In this document: positions 2 to 34,055 of the stretch, piece after piece
Layout of the letters: every line of letters starts with the position of its first letter
How positions within the stretch are numbered: position 1 is the stretch's first letter
Assembly (NCBI RefSeq): GCF_022014595.1
Contig: NZ_CP091740.1
Coordinates: 1,302,001-1,366,000 of the forward strand
Length of the DNA: 64,000 bases
Origin: Solitalea lacus
GTDB lineage: Bacteria > Bacteroidota > Bacteroidia > Sphingobacteriales > Sphingobacteriaceae
Reading direction: 5' to 3'
Made by a program: the position numbers and the translations under genes
Notes under the pieces: model-generated
What the model saw: only the letters and a program-made list of their open reading frames with translations
Told to the model about the DNA's origin: nothing
Database searches by the model: none

Positions 2-910
2 CAGGTTAATAACTTGACTAATCAGCTTAAAGTTAGTCAGGAGCAATTGGCAATCGCAAAGAAAAAGGCTGACGTTGGTACTATTACTGAAGCAGATTAC
101 CTGCAATTTAAAGCACAGGTGGCAAACGATGAAACCAACCTAACCAGTGCTCAAAATCAATTAGAGATTGCCTCATTAGAATTGAAACAATTGCTCAATT
201 TAGAACCGCAACAAACATTCGGAATAATTCGGCCAAGCGATGCTGCAATGGTAGAGGCTTCTAAAAGTGCTTACGAGGCAGTTTATGTATACAATGAAGC
301 TTTGAAAATAAACCCAAGTATTAAGGTGGCAGAATATCAATCCTTGGCTTCAGAAAGAGCTGTAAGTGTTGCCAAAGGAGCATTTTATCCATCATTGAAC
401 CTGAGTGCCAATGTGGGTTCTTATTACTCTTGGAACTATTATTTGCCAGTTGATCCGGCTAATCCTAATGGTCCTGATTATAGACCAACCTTCAAAGATC
501 AGTATAACACCTTTTTAGGTAAGTCAATTAACTTGAGTTTAAACATTCCAATTTTTAACGGACTTCAATCTAGAAATTCGGTTAAGAAGGCAAAAATAAG
601 TTATGAAAACACTAAAGCTTCTGAAGTACTTGCCAAGAATCAGTTAAACAAAACTATTGCGCAATCAGTGGCTGATTTAAAAGCTGCAGAGAAAAAGTAT
701 GCATCGGCTCAAATTTCTTTTGAATCGCTTAAAAAAGCCTATGAATTTAGTCAAAAGCGTTTTGACGTTGGTTTGATTAATAGCTTGGACTTAAATATTG
801 CAAAAACCAATTACAGTAAAGCTGAATCGGAGGCTTTGCAGGCAAAATACGATATGGTTTTTAAAAGCAAAGTAATTGATTATTATTTAGGAAAGCCCTT
901 AACTTTATAA
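2..910 (+). CDS. TolC-family outer-membrane efflux channel, C-terminal part (5' end outside window)
   Basis: The reading frame is open to the left edge (frame beginning at base 2), so about 302 residues of a longer protein (family usually 430-500 aa) are visible. The protein consists of long amphipathic helices with the two-fold OEP repeat layout; the typical signature near the second helical hairpin is RFDVGLINSLDLNIAKTNY (RxxxGxxxxxDxLxA type). A beta-strand-like stretch (about residues 130-185 of the visible part) carries the membrane-barrel segment. It would form the outer-membrane exit duct of a tripartite pump. The adaptor gene starts 38 nt downstream on the same strand, so the two are probably one operon. 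An internal TTG at 14 is not the real start. The missing inner-membrane partner may lie upstream of the window. Confidence 0.9.
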   Translation, partial: QVNNLTNQLKVSQEQLAIAKKKADVGTITEADYLQFKAQVANDETNLTSAQNQLEIASLELKQLLNLEPQQTFGIIRPSDAAMVEASKSAYEAVYVYNEALKINPSIKVAEYQSLASERAVSVAKGAFYPSLNLSANVGSYYSWNYYLPVDPANPNGPDYRPTFKDQYNTFLGKSINLSLNIPIFNGLQSRNSVKKAKISYENTKASEVLAKNQLNKTIAQSVADLKAAEKKYASAQISFESLKKAYEFSQKRFDVGLINSLDLNIAKTNYSKAESEALQAKYDMVFKSKVIDYYLGKPLTL

Positions 911-17108: not shown

Positions 17109-17419
17109 ATGGAAACTTTAACCAGTGAAAGTCTGTTTTTGATGCTTGCCAGATTAATTGAGTGGCTTTTTTTTAAAAAAAATACTAAATATTTAGTTAA
17201 ATAACTTAGGATAAAAATAAACGACAGTTTTTTCCTGTTTTACCTATAAAAACATTCCGCTACTTTAAAAAACAACTCTTTCTTTTAGTGAAAATTTTGG
17301 CAAAACTTCATGAATTAATTGAAGGTTGGGCTTTGCTCTCAATTGTGTAGAACGCTCACAAGATTAAATTAATAATTATACTTTTGCGGCCTTTTTGCTA
17401 TTTAAAAGTTTGATTATTA
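17109..17419. other. Intergenic region with promoter
   Basis: This 311-nt AT-rich stretch contains no gene. It holds the predicted promoter of the glycosyltransferase fusion at 17379-17386. Confidence 0.5.
17379..17386 (+). promoter_or_regulatory. Promoter -7 box of the glycosyltransferase fusion
   Basis: TACTTTTG followed by C is a full match to TAnnTTTG, 34 nt upstream of the ATG. No TTG lies at the ideal spacing. Confidence 0.5.
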
Positions 17420-19360
17420 ATGATTTTTGCTTTTCCTGTTGAAGTCTATTTTATTTCTCTCCTCATTATTGTTCTTGTAGATGGTCTTAAAATGCTGGTA
17501 GAAGCAACCCGACGCTCATGCATTCCTATCAAAGAAAACTCCTTTAAGGATATTACGGTAATTATGTCGGCTTTTAATGAAGAGCGACATATTGTACGGA
17601 CCATTGAATCGTTTTTGAGAAATGGATTTTCACAAAATCAGTTATACATAGTTGATGACGGTAGTACCGATAATACCTATGGTGTAATAAAGTCTGCTGG
17701 TTATGATCAAGTGAACTTATTCAAACGTCAAAATGCCGGAAAGGCCAATCAGCTTGAGTGGTTAATGAAACGAGTTACTACCAGGTACTTGATGATTGTT
17801 GATGCTGATATTTACCTGCAAAATAATTTTCATATTCCTGTTGATCGGTTCGAGTCTCATGAAGTAACTGGTATAGCCTTTAATATTGAACCTTATAATA
17901 TTGGTAGAGGCTTTTTTAGTAGGCTGGCTGTGAACTTGCAGAAGTATGAATATGCTAAATCAATGCTTATTGGCAGGGCTAGTAAAAACCGAACACAATC
18001 TGTATCCTGTATTAGTGGAGCTGCCGGAGTTTTTAAGACAGAGCGACTTAAGTATTTAACTGAAGTGCATAGCGGTGTGTTTAGTGGTGAAGATCTACAG
18101 CGAACGCTTATTGACTTGATTAATGACGGAAATATTATTTTCTCTGAAAGTGTTGTTTATACCGATGTGCCTGAAACTTTTAAATCCCTTACACGCCAGC
18201 GGGTTATAGGTTGGTGGGGAGGTTTGTTTCATTGCTTTCCTCTTTTATTTAAGGTAATGCTTAACCGGAACTCGCCACTCTATCTTCGCTACGAAATGGC
18301 TTATGAATCCGTATCATTAGTGCTTGATCCTCTTAAATTTATCTCCTTTTGCTGTTTGTTGTTTTGGCGTGAGTGGGAGCAATTGACTATGCTGTACTGC
18401 ACTTATACTGTATTTGAAGTAATACTTTTCTCTACCATTTTTAATAAAATGAAGCTCAATGTTTCTCCTGGTATTATTCTTTTACTCTATCCTGTTTATT
18501 CAGTTTATCAAATGATATTGCGTTTAGTTGCATTTGTTTATTATTTGCACAAGCGATTTGTCGCTCAAGAATGGAACCCGGTTTTTCAAACCATAAAAAT
18601 TCTAAGTTTGGTTTTGGGATTACTATTAGTCAGTATAAATAGTAGTGCCCAGGATAAGACTCTTACCGGAAGGATGCTTGTAGGAGAAAAGGAAAATATG
18701 CTTGGTTCGTCAACAGATACAACAATTGCGGATAAACCAAAAGTAAAAAGCATTTTAGGTAAGAAGGATTGGATTGTAAGTACAGCGTTTAATTACCTAT
18801 CACATAATTACCATGATTTTTCGAAAAGCTTGTCTAATGTGAATGTTTATGCAGGGTATAAAAACTACTGGACAGAATTGAGTTTAATAACTGATGAACG
18901 TTTTACTGTAGGCACTTATTTCAAGAAGGGTTATGCATGGGCTCGCTATCGTGATAATGATATGGCGGCGTACGGCAATTACAGTTTACGTGTTTCGCGA
19001 TCATTTCCACATGCAATAAATATCACTTATCAGCATATTTACCAATTTTATGATAGTAAGAACATATTTATTCCAGGAGCTGAAATTGAGCAGTATTTTG
19101 GAGATAATACCAGAGTAAACTTGAGCTTACGGCAGGAAATTGGGCGTTTAGGTGATTTTAGTGGCATGCTTAGGGCTTATTACCGAAAGAATAAATGGAA
19201 TATTAGTGGTGGTGCCGGGGTTAATAGTTACTTGCACAAAACCGGATTTATAAGTTTAGGATACGGGCCTATTTACCTGATTGGATCTTATATCGAAAAA
19301 TTTGATTACTCTAACTTTGATCGAACATCGATAGGCTTGGGTATAAAGCAAACTTTTTAG
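17420..19360 (+). CDS. Fusion of an inner-membrane GT2 glycosyltransferase with a YaiO-like outer-membrane barrel
   Basis: The 646-residue single frame holds two proteins' worth of domains. Residues about 1-25 are a transmembrane helix and about 44-250 a GT2 domain with VDDGSTDNT, DADIYL, ISGAAGVF and SGEDLQRT; QRVIGWWGG stands where canonical processive synthases have QxxRW. Several transmembrane helices follow (about 290-390). Residues about 393-411 form a textbook Bacteroidota signal peptide (ILSLVLGLLLVSINSSAQ) with a likely cleavage after Gln411. The last 235 residues are an aromatic, alternating-strand beta-barrel like YaiO/PgaA-type export porins, ending in the strand IGLGIKQTF. The simplest inference is a polysaccharide synthase and its outer-membrane exit pore made as one polypeptide and separated by signal peptidase. 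Neither the polymer nor the cleavage is shown by sequence. Confidence 0.8.
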   Translation: MIFAFPVEVYFISLLIIVLVDGLKMLVEATRRSCIPIKENSFKDITVIMSAFNEERHIVRTIESFLRNGFSQNQLYIVDDGSTDNTYGVIKSAGYDQVNLFKRQNAGKANQLEWLMKRVTTRYLMIVDADIYLQNNFHIPVDRFESHEVTGIAFNIEPYNIGRGFFSRLAVNLQKYEYAKSMLIGRASKNRTQSVSCISGAAGVFKTERLKYLTEVHSGVFSGEDLQRTLIDLINDGNIIFSESVVYTDVPETFKSLTRQRVIGWWGGLFHCFPLLFKVMLNRNSPLYLRYEMAYESVSLVLDPLKFISFCCLLFWREWEQLTMLYCTYTVFEVILFSTIFNKMKLNVSPGIILLLYPVYSVYQMILRLVAFVYYLHKRFVAQEWNPVFQTIKILSLVLGLLLVSINSSAQDKTLTGRMLVGEKENMLGSSTDTTIADKPKVKSILGKKDWIVSTAFNYLSHNYHDFSKSLSNVNVYAGYKNYWTELSLITDERFTVGTYFKKGYAWARYRDNDMAAYGNYSLRVSRSFPHAINITYQHIYQFYDSKNIFIPGAEIEQYFGDNTRVNLSLRQEIGRLGDFSGMLRAYYRKNKWNISGGAGVNSYLHKTGFISLGYGPIYLIGSYIEKFDYSNFDRTSIGLGIKQTF

Positions 19361-19548
19361 CATGTTGTTCAATCCTTAATCGGTAACTTTAAATTCCTTA
19401 TAAAATTGAATAATGTGTAACTAAATTGTGTTTTAGGTGTTAATTATGCAATTATTCAAAGTTATCGTTGATAAATATTAAACTGAGTATCTGTCTTAGT
19501 TGATGATGTGAGTATTTTTAACTACTTTCGGCTGCTTCTTTTGAGTAG

Positions 19549-31214: not shown

Positions 31215-31934
31215 TTGAATGAAAGCTTTTTTAAATGGTACTTACTTGCAATAGTTGTAAGTATGGCCTTTGGCTCATGTAGTGATGATACAGATATGTC
31301 GCAAACTTTTGATATTCCGCCGCTAGATTCTTCACGAAAAACCAAGGTTAATGTTAATTACCCGCCTACTGTTTCAGCAGGTGATGATTTAATAACAGTT
31401 CTGCCAGATGATACAGTTACCTTAGAAGGAACTTTTTATGATGAACAGGAAAAGCGGGGACAATATCGATGGACTCAATTGGAGGGGCCATCTGCTGCTA
31501 CGATTGAAAAACCTGACGAAATAGCAGTTACCATCACTAATTTGGTAAGTGGTATTTACAAATTTGAATTTGAAGGCAAAGACAGTAGCGGCCTGACGGG
31601 GAAAGATACAGTAACAGTAAATGTAATTGAAGAATCACTGTTCAAGAATAAAGTGGTTTTTAATAAAATTAGTTTTGATTGCAATGACAGACCTGGTGGT
31701 GGTTCCAGCTACTGTGTCGGTATAATCACTAATATTTATGAAACTATACCGCAAAATCAACCAATTCTTGTGTTTGTTAGTATTAAATCTAATTGGCAAG
31801 AGCTTAAAAACGAGTATTTCTACTGGGCAAACTTTTCAAAGCCAACGAGTATGCTTTATATGATCAACGACAATGGAGATTTATATATAATGGTCGATAA
31901 TTCTTCTGAAGGCAATGTGATAGTATTTTATTGA
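31215..31934 (+). CDS. PKD/K319L-like domain surface lipoprotein
   Basis: The 239-residue protein begins with a lipoprotein signal (FFKWYLLAIVVSMAFGSC; acylated Cys at about residue 22). The mature part has one PKD-like Ig domain (about 50-140: PTVSAGDDLITVLPDDTVTL, GQYRWTQLEGPSAATI, GIYKFEFEGKDSSGLTGKDT) and a unique C-terminal domain ending VIVFY. It is probably anchored on the cell surface or outer membrane. The in-frame start is TTG at 31215. An ATG at 31219 is one frame off and would read MKAFFKWYLL only if the T6 tract at 31227-31232 had seven T residues. A tandem paralogue follows directly. Confidence 0.75.
   Translation: MNESFFKWYLLAIVVSMAFGSCSDDTDMSQTFDIPPLDSSRKTKVNVNYPPTVSAGDDLITVLPDDTVTLEGTFYDEQEKRGQYRWTQLEGPSAATIEKPDEIAVTITNLVSGIYKFEFEGKDSSGLTGKDTVTVNVIEESLFKNKVVFNKISFDCNDRPGGGSSYCVGIITNIYETIPQNQPILVFVSIKSNWQELKNEYFYWANFSKPTSMLYMINDNGDLYIMVDNSSEGNVIVFY
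31300..31350 (+). repeat. Direct repeat, copy 1 (5' part of the mature lipoprotein region)
   Basis: A stretch of about 50 bp, starting CGCAAACTTTTGATAT and running through CTAGATTCTTCACG to CCAAGGTTA, is nearly identical to 31977-32024. The second copy is 3 bp shorter. It marks the tandem duplication of the two PKD genes. Confidence 0.85.
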
Positions 31935-32480
31935 AATATCGGTATTTATGGTTTGGTTTTTTTTAGTTTTTTGAACCGCAAACTTTTGATATGCCGCTAG
32001 ATTCTTCACGAAAAACCAAGGTTAATTACCCTCCGATAGTTTCCGCAAGTGGCGATATGGAAATTTTGCTTCCCACAGAACCGCTTAAACTTGTTGGTAA
32101 TTTTCAAGATGGAGAATCACAAAAGGGAACTTATTTGTGGCGACAAGTTTCAGGGCCATCTACTGCTAAAATTGATGACTCTACAACTCATTCAATCCAG
32201 ATAACCAATTTGAAAACTGGTAACTATATATTTGAGTTTAAGGCAGAAGACAGTGGTGGTTTAAGCAATAGTGCTTTCGTTAAAGTTAATATAATTGATG
32301 TATCCTCTTTTCAACATCAAGTATTATTTGATAAGGTTCATTGGAGCTGTCCTTGGGGGTGTTCAGCCTCTATAAATAATTTTTTTGAGCAATTACCACA
32401 ATACAAGCAAGGCGATTCGCTTATGGTATTTATTAGCTATAATTCAGTTTGGCATTTGATAAAGTTAACAGTTTGGGATG

Positions 32481-32488
32481 ATTTGTCT
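32481..32488 (+). repeat. IS66 target-site duplication, left copy
   Basis: ATTTGTCT abuts the left inverted repeat and is identical to 34770-34777. Eight bp is the expected length for IS66. Confidence 0.92.
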
Positions 32489-32513
32489 GTATCCGCCCGA
32501 CGAACCCCGTCTT

Positions 32514-34055
32514 TTAAAGTTCAGTTAATTTCTTAAAGTTCTGGGGATAGAGGTCCCGGATATTCTTGTGGTTGATGGTCATGATGTTTTCCAGTGCGTA
32601 TTTTAACCACCCGAAAGGATTGACCTCATTTTTCTTGCAGATGGCAAAGAACGAATAGATCATCCCCGCCCGCGCAGCAGCCTCATGCGTTCCTGCAAAC
32701 AAAAAGTTTTTGCGTCCCAAAGCGATGGGGCGTATGGCATTCTCGATGGCATTATTGTCGATCTGCAGGCTGCCATCCTGGAGATACACGCTGAGCTTAT
32801 CCCATCGTGCCATGGCATAGCGCATCGCCTTTCCAATCTGGCTTTTGGGCAAGGTGTTTTTTACCTCGGCGAAGATCCATTTACCGAGCTCGTTGAGTAC
32901 CGGAAGTGCTTCATCCAGACGTAATTGCTTGCGTTGATCGGCCGGCAGCTGTGCTTCTTTAGCTTTGCGCTCCACCGCGTAGAGCTGCTGGATCAACTCG
33001 AGTGCTTTAGCGGCCCTGACCTTATCGTTTTCCAGTGCCCGTTCAAATTCCCTTCGGGCATGCGCCCAGCAGGCTACCGGGATGACCTCGGGCCGCTGGC
33101 CTATTTTTTCGTATACGCCGTAGCCATCACTTTGGAGATACCCCTTAAAGTGCGCCAGCATTTCTTTGGTAGCTACTGCACCGCGAGTAGGCTGATAGTC
33201 CATCAGGACCAGTCCGTCCAGTGGAGCATGATACACCCAATACCAGCCCAGGTGACAAGCTCCTTTCTTATCACTTTCTAGCACCTTGATGGTCGTTTCA
33301 TCGACCTGCAAATAACCCTTGGCTTTGATGTCGAACTTGAGTTGCTCAAAGAGCGGTTCGAGTCGTTCCAGCCCTTGTTTGACCCAGCCTTCGAGCGTAG
33401 AGGAGGCAATGGGGATGTTTTCCCGGGCAAACCGCTGCTTTTGTCGGTACAGCGGCAAGTGATCCACATATTTATCGGTCAGGATCATGGCCAGCAGGCC
33501 TGCGCCCGGAATGCCCTTGTCGATTACTCGTTCGGGAAGCTCTCCGGTGGTGACCCCTTCACCGCTTTTGGCAGCATATTTATAGCGGATATAACGGCGG
33601 ATGAAGAACCGGGCAGGTTCACACTCCAGCTCTTCAGTAACTTCTTTGCCGATGCATACCATTTCCGACAGATCACCCTGGGGATAGATCTCCACTTCCT
33701 CTACCGGTAAATGAGCCGGAAGGGCGGCGCGGCCTTTATGGGCAGACTGGCTTTTACGGGTATAGGTAATCTGTTCTTTGATGGTTTCTTCCTGAAGGGC
33801 CACTGCTTCTGCCGGAGCTTCAAATGGCAACACACCTTGTGCGGGATCGCCTTCGAAGCGTTCACGCTTCTGACCGAATTGCATTCGCTTGAAAAGCTCA
33901 ACCTGCTGTTTAAGGTAGTCGACCTCTTCCTGAAGGGAAGAGTTGATTTTTTGGTAGGATTCAATGGCGGCATCTCTCCTTTCAATGGAGGTATCTTTCT
34001 CCTTCAAAAGAGCAATCAGGTTCTCTTTTGAGAGGTTTTCCAGTGCCATATCCAT
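32514..34055 (-). CDS. tnpC: IS66 transposase TnpC
   Basis: The 513-residue DDE transposase has an N-terminal leucine-zipper segment (LIALLKEKDTSIERRDAAIE), a linker with MQFGQKRERF, and the IS66 DDE domain: LQVDETTIKVLESDKKG (first Asp), GYLQSDGYGVYEKI (second Asp) and NAIENAIRPIALGRKNFLFA (Glu region), followed by the IS66 C-terminal domain (YSFFAICKKNEVNPFGWLKY). The zinc-finger block seen in many relatives is not evident as a four-Cys motif. The length is normal and the frame intact, so the element may be active. Confidence 0.95.
   Translation of the reverse strand: MDMALENLSKENLIALLKEKDTSIERRDAAIESYQKINSSLQEEVDYLKQQVELFKRMQFGQKRERFEGDPAQGVLPFEAPAEAVALQEETIKEQITYTRKSQSAHKGRAALPAHLPVEEVEIYPQGDLSEMVCIGKEVTEELECEPARFFIRRYIRYKYAAKSGEGVTTGELPERVIDKGIPGAGLLAMILTDKYVDHLPLYRQKQRFARENIPIASSTLEGWVKQGLERLEPLFEQLKFDIKAKGYLQVDETTIKVLESDKKGACHLGWYWVYHAPLDGLVLMDYQPTRGAVATKEMLAHFKGYLQSDGYGVYEKIGQRPEVIPVACWAHARREFERALENDKVRAAKALELIQQLYAVERKAKEAQLPADQRKQLRLDEALPVLNELGKWIFAEVKNTLPKSQIGKAMRYAMARWDKLSVYLQDGSLQIDNNAIENAIRPIALGRKNFLFAGTHEAAARAGMIYSFFAICKKNEVNPFGWLKYALENIMTINHKNIRDLYPQNFKKLTEL

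Follow-up and report, generated by a model that had tools for sequence, protein, structure and literature searches.

A single open reading frame in Solitalea lacus joins a membrane GT2 glycosyltransferase to an internal signal peptide and a putative outer-membrane barrel

The window, by which we mean the whole 64,000-nucleotide stretch of Solitalea lacus DNA analysed here (contig NZ_CP091740.1, positions 1,302,001 to 1,366,000), carries on its forward strand an open reading frame of 646 codons (17420-19360, 646 aa) that starts with ATG, stops with TAG and reads as a single coding sequence; all features of the gene given below lie on this strand. A codon-usage score trained on 16 other ORFs of the window was applied to 32 overlapping windows along the gene, and its frame beat the other two forward frames in every one, indicating one coding frame throughout. 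The score of the frame itself was slightly negative in five of the 32, one of which covers codons 381-420 over the junction described below, and the frame is unchanged across that junction. The GC content of the gene resembles that of its surroundings. At 17379-17386, 33 bases upstream of the ATG, lies TACTTTTG, which resembles the Bacteroidota -7 promoter consensus, a weak match because such elements are no commoner than chance in the window (82 found versus 94.3 expected).

The first half of the protein had been read from the sequence as a GT2 synthase with several membrane helices, and this description holds. Residues 46-171 (17555-17932) match PF00535 at 67.8 bits against a Pfam cut-off of 23.3. 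In an AlphaFold2 model of the full protein, built with 29 aligned GT2 relatives, the catalytic core of residues 41-160 is confident (pLDDT block means 81-93), and helices are modelled at lower confidence at residues 4-32 (17429-17515), 287-314 and 319-343 (together 18278-18448), 350-381 (18467-18562, a long hydrophobic stretch that is more polar in the relatives shown) and 387-410. When the model was compared with structures in the PDB, its closest fold was hyaluronan synthase (E 1.7e-12), with the Chlorella virus and Xenopus enzymes on top, followed by chitin synthases, a mannosyltransferase and cellulose synthase; the TM-scores of these matches were poor (0.40 when normalised by query length) and their rmsd values large, since confidence is low over much of the model. 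Among NCBIfam models PgaC_IcaA (TIGR03937) comes nearest, and its 67.7 bits fall so far under the curated cut-off of 422.3 that membership of the PgaC/IcaA PNAG synthases was rejected. A Pfam search of the fused protein matched GT2 families only, which is a warning for annotation: profile searches detect nothing but the glycosyltransferase here. This half, residues 1-391, is a membrane GT2 glycosyltransferase, its predicted fold closest to the hyaluronan synthases.

Two marks of a processive synthase are present in this half: the DxD motif D128-A129-D130 (17801-17809), both Asp of which are invariant in 30 aligned sequences, and D225 (18092-18094), which aligns with the Asp of the TED motif and is likewise invariant. 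Further invariant columns include N53, E54, D80, D84, Q260, R261 and W265. The QxxRW motif is absent, being replaced at residues 260-266 (18197-18217) by QRVIGWW, with Arg changed to Gly and one residue added; comparison with 17 aligned relatives, 16 of them carrying QRxRW and one QRNWW, confirms the replacement that the sequence-only reading had pointed out. This alteration weakens any claim to an ordinary processive synthase. The relative with QRNWW is a GT2 gene near a YaiO barrel gene in another genome (locus L143, 8066-9550), and in it, too, the Arg of this motif has been lost.

The position at which the enzyme ends was read from an alignment of 17 of the 21 GT2-like ORFs found in the fetched stretches, leaving out L142 (cut by the end of its locus), L144 (long, with QIMRW kept) and the remote L147 and L148, both without Q..RW. 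In all 17 the protein continues for a tail of 12-55 residues past the equivalent of W385, which is Trp in 16 and Tyr in one, and the GT2 half stops where these relatives stop, its natural C-terminal tail being residues 385-391 (W385-N-P to T391, 18572-18592); W-N-P at this point is common to L150, L151 and L152. Tail hydropathy reaches at most 0.42 among the nine relatives whose tails are long enough to score, versus 2.59 in the window, and the three complete ORFs left out of the alignment (L144, L147 and L148) have no hydrophobic end above 0.48. As the relatives' tails are also short past the W385-equivalent and none of those scored is so hydrophobic, the enzyme half is complete as judged from the alignment.

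Directly after it, without a linker, a Bacteroidota-type signal peptide, IKILSLVLGLLLVSINSSA followed by Q, runs from codon 392 (residues 392-411, 18593-18652). Its first residue, I392, is encoded by ATA, K393 precedes the hydrophobic segment, and the segment closes on NSSA/Q, with the expected cut between A410 and Q411. A home-made signal-peptide scan of 419 ORFs (152,397 aa) from the window and the fetched loci, the window's own copies left out, gave six matches past residue 70, the junction scoring highest; in two of the remaining five the signal looks N-terminal, the start of the ORF having been set too early. The junction score of 3.07 lies among the values for N-terminal signal peptides of the same window (2.42-3.38), and the earlier recognition of an internal Bacteroidota-like signal peptide is thus supported, both by this top score and by the NSSA/Q site. 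No ATG or GTG occurs in frame between codons 365 and 419; in-frame TTG codons stand at 367, 376, 397 and 399.

The charge distribution bears on how this segment would enter the membrane. Lys and Arg outnumber Asp and Glu by three to one over residues 374-395, and they are also in excess around the Trp in 16 of 17 relatives, L137 being the exception. Because such an excess fits the positive-inside rule, the C-terminus of the enzyme would be cytoplasmic, which in turn would orient the internal signal peptide rightly. The orientation would be correct provided that the segment 350-381 is not simply membrane-spanning; were that helix to span the membrane, the signal peptide would begin in the periplasm and be unable to function. 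That a whole GT2 membrane enzyme is joined to a signal peptide and a secreted domain is well supported, since the enzyme half stops where its separate relatives stop and the signal peptide starts there.

The region beyond the expected cut, residues 412-646, had been described as a 235-residue aromatic beta-barrel, a description of which the composition stands and the fold does not follow from any profile or model. Residues 412-450 (18653-18769) read as a polar linker (pLDDT below 50 at 405-444), and residues 451-646 (18770-19357, ending in RTSIGLGIKQTF) form a putative outer-membrane barrel by composition, to which AlphaFold2 gave no fold. This last segment contains 19.4% Tyr, Phe and Trp, versus 10.4% in control pieces and 18.2% in YaiO barrels, has no Cys and ends in Phe, the last residue also of 23 of 30 YaiO pieces (five end in Trp and two were cut before their end). 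A composition classifier trained on 30 YaiO domains versus 222 pieces of neighbouring proteins, which in cross-validation placed 30 of 30 YaiO domains and seven of 222 controls above 0.5, gave residues 451-646 a value of 0.90, exceeding all 222 controls; for residues 412-646 it was 0.58, with four controls higher, so that the value depends on the piece chosen. The C-terminal half has therefore three marks of a barrel protein, namely the signal peptide, an aromatic-rich sequence and the C-terminal Phe.

Other measures of this half are less favourable to a barrel. Its strand-alternation score lies under those of all 30 YaiO barrels and is equalled by 17% of control pieces, and in a cruder alternation test 123 of 500 shuffles scored as high. 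No Pfam, NCBIfam or PHROGs family matches it (best Pfam E 0.24). In the full AlphaFold2 model block means over residues 411-646 range from 24 to 70, mostly below 50, and residues 448-491 are modelled as a helix (471-490 at pLDDT 64-70) that either counts against a barrel or is the noise of a stretch without homologues. Residues 441-646 modelled alone, without homologues, gave six short strands at a mean pLDDT of 30.9. Membership of the YaiO family (TIGR04390/PF19413) was rejected, as no NCBIfam or Pfam YaiO model matched at E<=1 and hhalign against our own profile gave probabilities of 0.2-0.4%. Shuffle tests for a likeness to YaiO beyond composition were marginal at best. In HMMER searches the C-terminal half outscored 389 of 400 shuffles when one YaiO profile was used and 382 of 400 when a second was used; of four hhalign set-ups, one ranked it higher than 78 of 80 shuffles, with 41, 20 and 23 of 80 shuffles higher in the others, and the reversed sequence scored higher in two set-ups. 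Taking composition and ending together, we think it reasonably probable that the last part is a barrel, and from its sequence it looks like one of another, or very diverged, family.

No second example of the fusion was found among the genomes sampled, either with the whole protein or with barrel-side queries, and conservation in Bacteroidota, which had been suggested as a check, was not seen. The full-protein searches covered 60 relatives, 399 family genomes and 395 phylum genomes, with the window's own genome included each time; in the latter two sets three candidates per genome were scored, and a barrel-only relative could escape. Among the matches listed only the GT2 half was aligned, none extending past query residue 403 except in the own genome. 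Outside the own genome the best barrel-side E-values were 0.0042 (60 relatives), 0.0013 (query residues 301-646, 395 class genomes) and 0.0044 (query residues 406-646, 399 family genomes), which is chance level for so many genomes. Ten loci behind barrel-side matches were inspected and set aside as unrelated by reading, except L157, where a hairpin region from a TonB-type receptor is matched, and L055, which may encode an envelope beta-protein; L157, L158, L159 and L055 reach E ~1e-5 in a tiny set, which is not significant versus the search size. Plasmids, viral contigs and genome contigs searched with a single-sequence query yielded no second fusion, and a search of genome contigs with an alignment returned at least 582 stretches, the matches listed being general GT2s. 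A literature search, with most subscription papers outside its reach, found no report of such a fusion. As a single genome among those sampled carries the fusion, selection for it cannot be shown.

Unfused counterparts are common. Of 198 phylum genomes sampled, 48 contain YaiO (TIGR04390), at 52 listed places, none of them in the window's own genome. Among the best 30 of these places, ten have a GT2 gene immediately before YaiO on its strand, two have one downstream and one has it on the other strand, and no GT2 gene lies within 1.5 kb in 17. Across all fetched loci, 17 GT2 ORFs are followed by a signal-peptide ORF with an aromatic last residue, and 15 of these followers are YaiO; without three duplicate loci the 15 become 12, eleven from sampled Bacteroidota and one from a proteobacterial MAG. 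The gap between the two genes is between -3 and +38 bases in 13 of the 15, the others being -84 and +116. A GT2 gene and a signal-peptide barrel gene are thus a recurrent neighbour pair in Bacteroidota, usually within 40 bases, and the window gene looks like a fused case of such a pair. The likeness extends to size: in three pairs a GT2 of 468-473 aa is followed after 4-6 bases by a barrel gene of 249-251 aa, as compared with 255 aa including the signal peptide here. The pairs differ from the fused gene in being separate genes and in their YaiO match; of the 185 GT2 ORFs examined, a count that includes duplicates and ORFs cut by locus ends but excludes the window's copies, not one is at the same time a YaiO match.

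The surroundings of these pairs offer some further observations. In all three GT2-YaiO pairs tested (L137, L141 and L154) a gene for a HEAT-repeat protein lies directly upstream of the GT2 gene, preceded at L137 by a response-regulator receiver gene, and the neighbourhood looks like a regulated glycan operon. At two other loci (L135 3404-6445, L136 3397-6210 (-)) YaiO barrels end proteins of 937-1013 aa beside GT2 genes; their size and layout are, by eye, NfrA-like.

The site itself is empty in three of three congeners, in which the upstream gene (PF03458) adjoins enolase with 274-298 bp between the matched parts, versus 2473 bp in the window. The DNA absent from them spans approximately 17205-19506, with no strand assigned and a left edge uncertain by about 100 bases. 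Its right side is marked by an element before enolase (19507-19535) that is conserved at 93-97% identity over 25-29 bases in the three congeners, within a spacer that is otherwise largely diverged, and that is perhaps the enolase promoter. Since the site is empty in all three, the whole gene probably arrived in one piece in its own lineage, which is more economical than three losses. Scans for repeats, terminators and promoters at the edges recognised no mobile-element ends, target duplication or transposase. Elsewhere in the window an IS66-type transposase gene (PF03050, 32514-34055, minus strand) overlaps with its end that of the second of two tandem PKD-domain genes (31215-31934 and 31991-32536), which it may have truncated.

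We propose a model for this gene that starts from the single frame, the complete GT2 half, the signal-peptide-like junction, the unfused pairs elsewhere and the empty congener site. The gene is real and unusual, and cleavage, barrel and function are putative. In the model, to which we give a nearly even chance, a two-gene synthase/barrel cassette has been fused in frame into a polyprotein that is split by signal peptidase, its parts being a GT2 polysaccharide synthase of the membrane (residues 1-391) and an outer-membrane barrel secreted by means of its own signal peptide (residues 392-646). The chain would be translated as one polyprotein. Its GT2 half would insert into the inner membrane so that the C-terminal tail of this half faces the cytoplasm, and the internal signal peptide would engage the Sec translocon in the manner of an N-terminal one. 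A cut by signal peptidase I after A410 would leave the signal peptide on the GT2 half as its last membrane helix, and the C-terminal half would pass through the periplasm to the outer membrane, into which BAM would fold it. The two products, made 1:1, would serve one surface glycan, the first as its synthase and the second as its exit (or anchoring) barrel. Of the earlier proposal of a synthase/porin pair on one chain, cut internally, the join is supported by the data given above, and the barrel, outer-membrane location, exit-porin role, glycan export and cutting are inferred. The fuller version, in which one chain delivers synthase and exit barrel through a single signal-peptidase cut and the altered QxxRW marks an adapted synthase variant, we regard as possible though doubtful; if true, a single chain would fix the ratio of synthase and exit barrel and couple their synthesis.

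An accidental or decaying fusion is a rather unlikely explanation, in which a pair was gained and the stop between its genes, the ATG of the second gene (now ATA) and the QxxRW were then lost, leaving a poor or non-working product. The broken QxxRW, the ATA standing where a separate gene would have ATG, the single occurrence of the fusion and its absence from three of three congeners would all suit it, but the gene runs for 646 codons without stop or frameshift, has coding signal in both halves and keeps the DxD, the TED Asp and a strong signal peptide. We think it unlikely that the C-terminal part is instead a periplasmic domain tethered by an uncleaved helix 387-410. AlphaFold2 does draw that helix as continuous, together with the one at 448-491 (both at low confidence), and the unrecognised barrel and weak strand alternation are in keeping with this reading; the junction, however, has an A/Q site like the N-terminal signals of the window, and a sequence that is rich in aromatic residues, lacks Cys and ends in Phe suits an outer-membrane barrel. 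Decidedly unlikely, in our view, is the production of two separate proteins by an in-frame start for the barrel. The best such start would be TTG376 (18545-18547), by codon reading the sole non-ATG start that keeps the charged region before the hydrophobic stretch; it precedes that stretch by 16 codons, giving a usable signal peptide with a 17-residue charged n-region, and genes in GT2-barrel pairs do overlap or almost touch. However, TTG is uncommon as a start and no purine-rich ribosome site precedes TTG376 by eye. The alternatives are less likely, as TTG397 or TTG399 would remove the charged region and ATA392 and ATT394 would be very weak start codons. Even with a start at TTG376 the fused product would also be made, because the GT2 stop is missing. 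An assembly or sequencing error joining two adjacent genes is highly improbable: one genome only carries the fusion, but that genome is one contig with completeness 100, and besides losing the stop the error must have changed a base of the second start codon, unless TTG376 is used.

Returning to the cleaved polyprotein, the proposed arrangement can be set beside several known systems. In the PgaC system the outer-membrane exit, PgaA, is a separate protein; the fused gene shares a GT2 synthase and has PgaC_IcaA as its best NCBIfam model, albeit at 67.7 bits versus a cut-off of 422.3, and no pga-like neighbour was seen among the ORFs around it. A parallel in processing is Bradyrhizobium fbcH, which encodes a cytochrome b/c1 polyprotein that signal peptidase cuts at an internal signal peptide, and which likewise places an inner-membrane and an exported protein on one chain, although it serves an electron-transport complex and both of its products remain in the inner membrane. 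Fusions are described within synthase-dependent polysaccharide systems, namely BcsZC, BcsAB and GT-PgaB (PMC7112194), joining hydrolase to pore, subunit to subunit and glycosyltransferase to deacetylase; none of those in the accessible part of that source joins a synthase to an outer-membrane pore. The systems described in the accessible parts of PMC8669469 and PMC7112194 use one protein as synthase and another as outer-membrane exit. Among described pairs the closest is NfrB/NfrA of E. coli, in which nfrB, for a GT2 synthase of the inner membrane, overlaps nfrA, for an outer-membrane TPR-barrel, by 14 nt, with evidence, in the part of the report available, for a secreted polysaccharide (PMC8669469). 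NfrB and NfrA differ from the window gene in being two proteins, in the TPR repeats of NfrA and in the QxxRW, which is broken here, and the marks of that pair, MshEN on the synthase and TPR on the barrel, are absent from the fused protein, which matched GT2 families only. Should the internal signal peptide of this natural fusion prove to work, a single chain would be seen to supply both membranes at a fixed 1:1 dose, and the gene would argue on genomic grounds that neighbouring GT2 and barrel genes, among them NfrB/NfrA and the GT2-YaiO pairs, work together.
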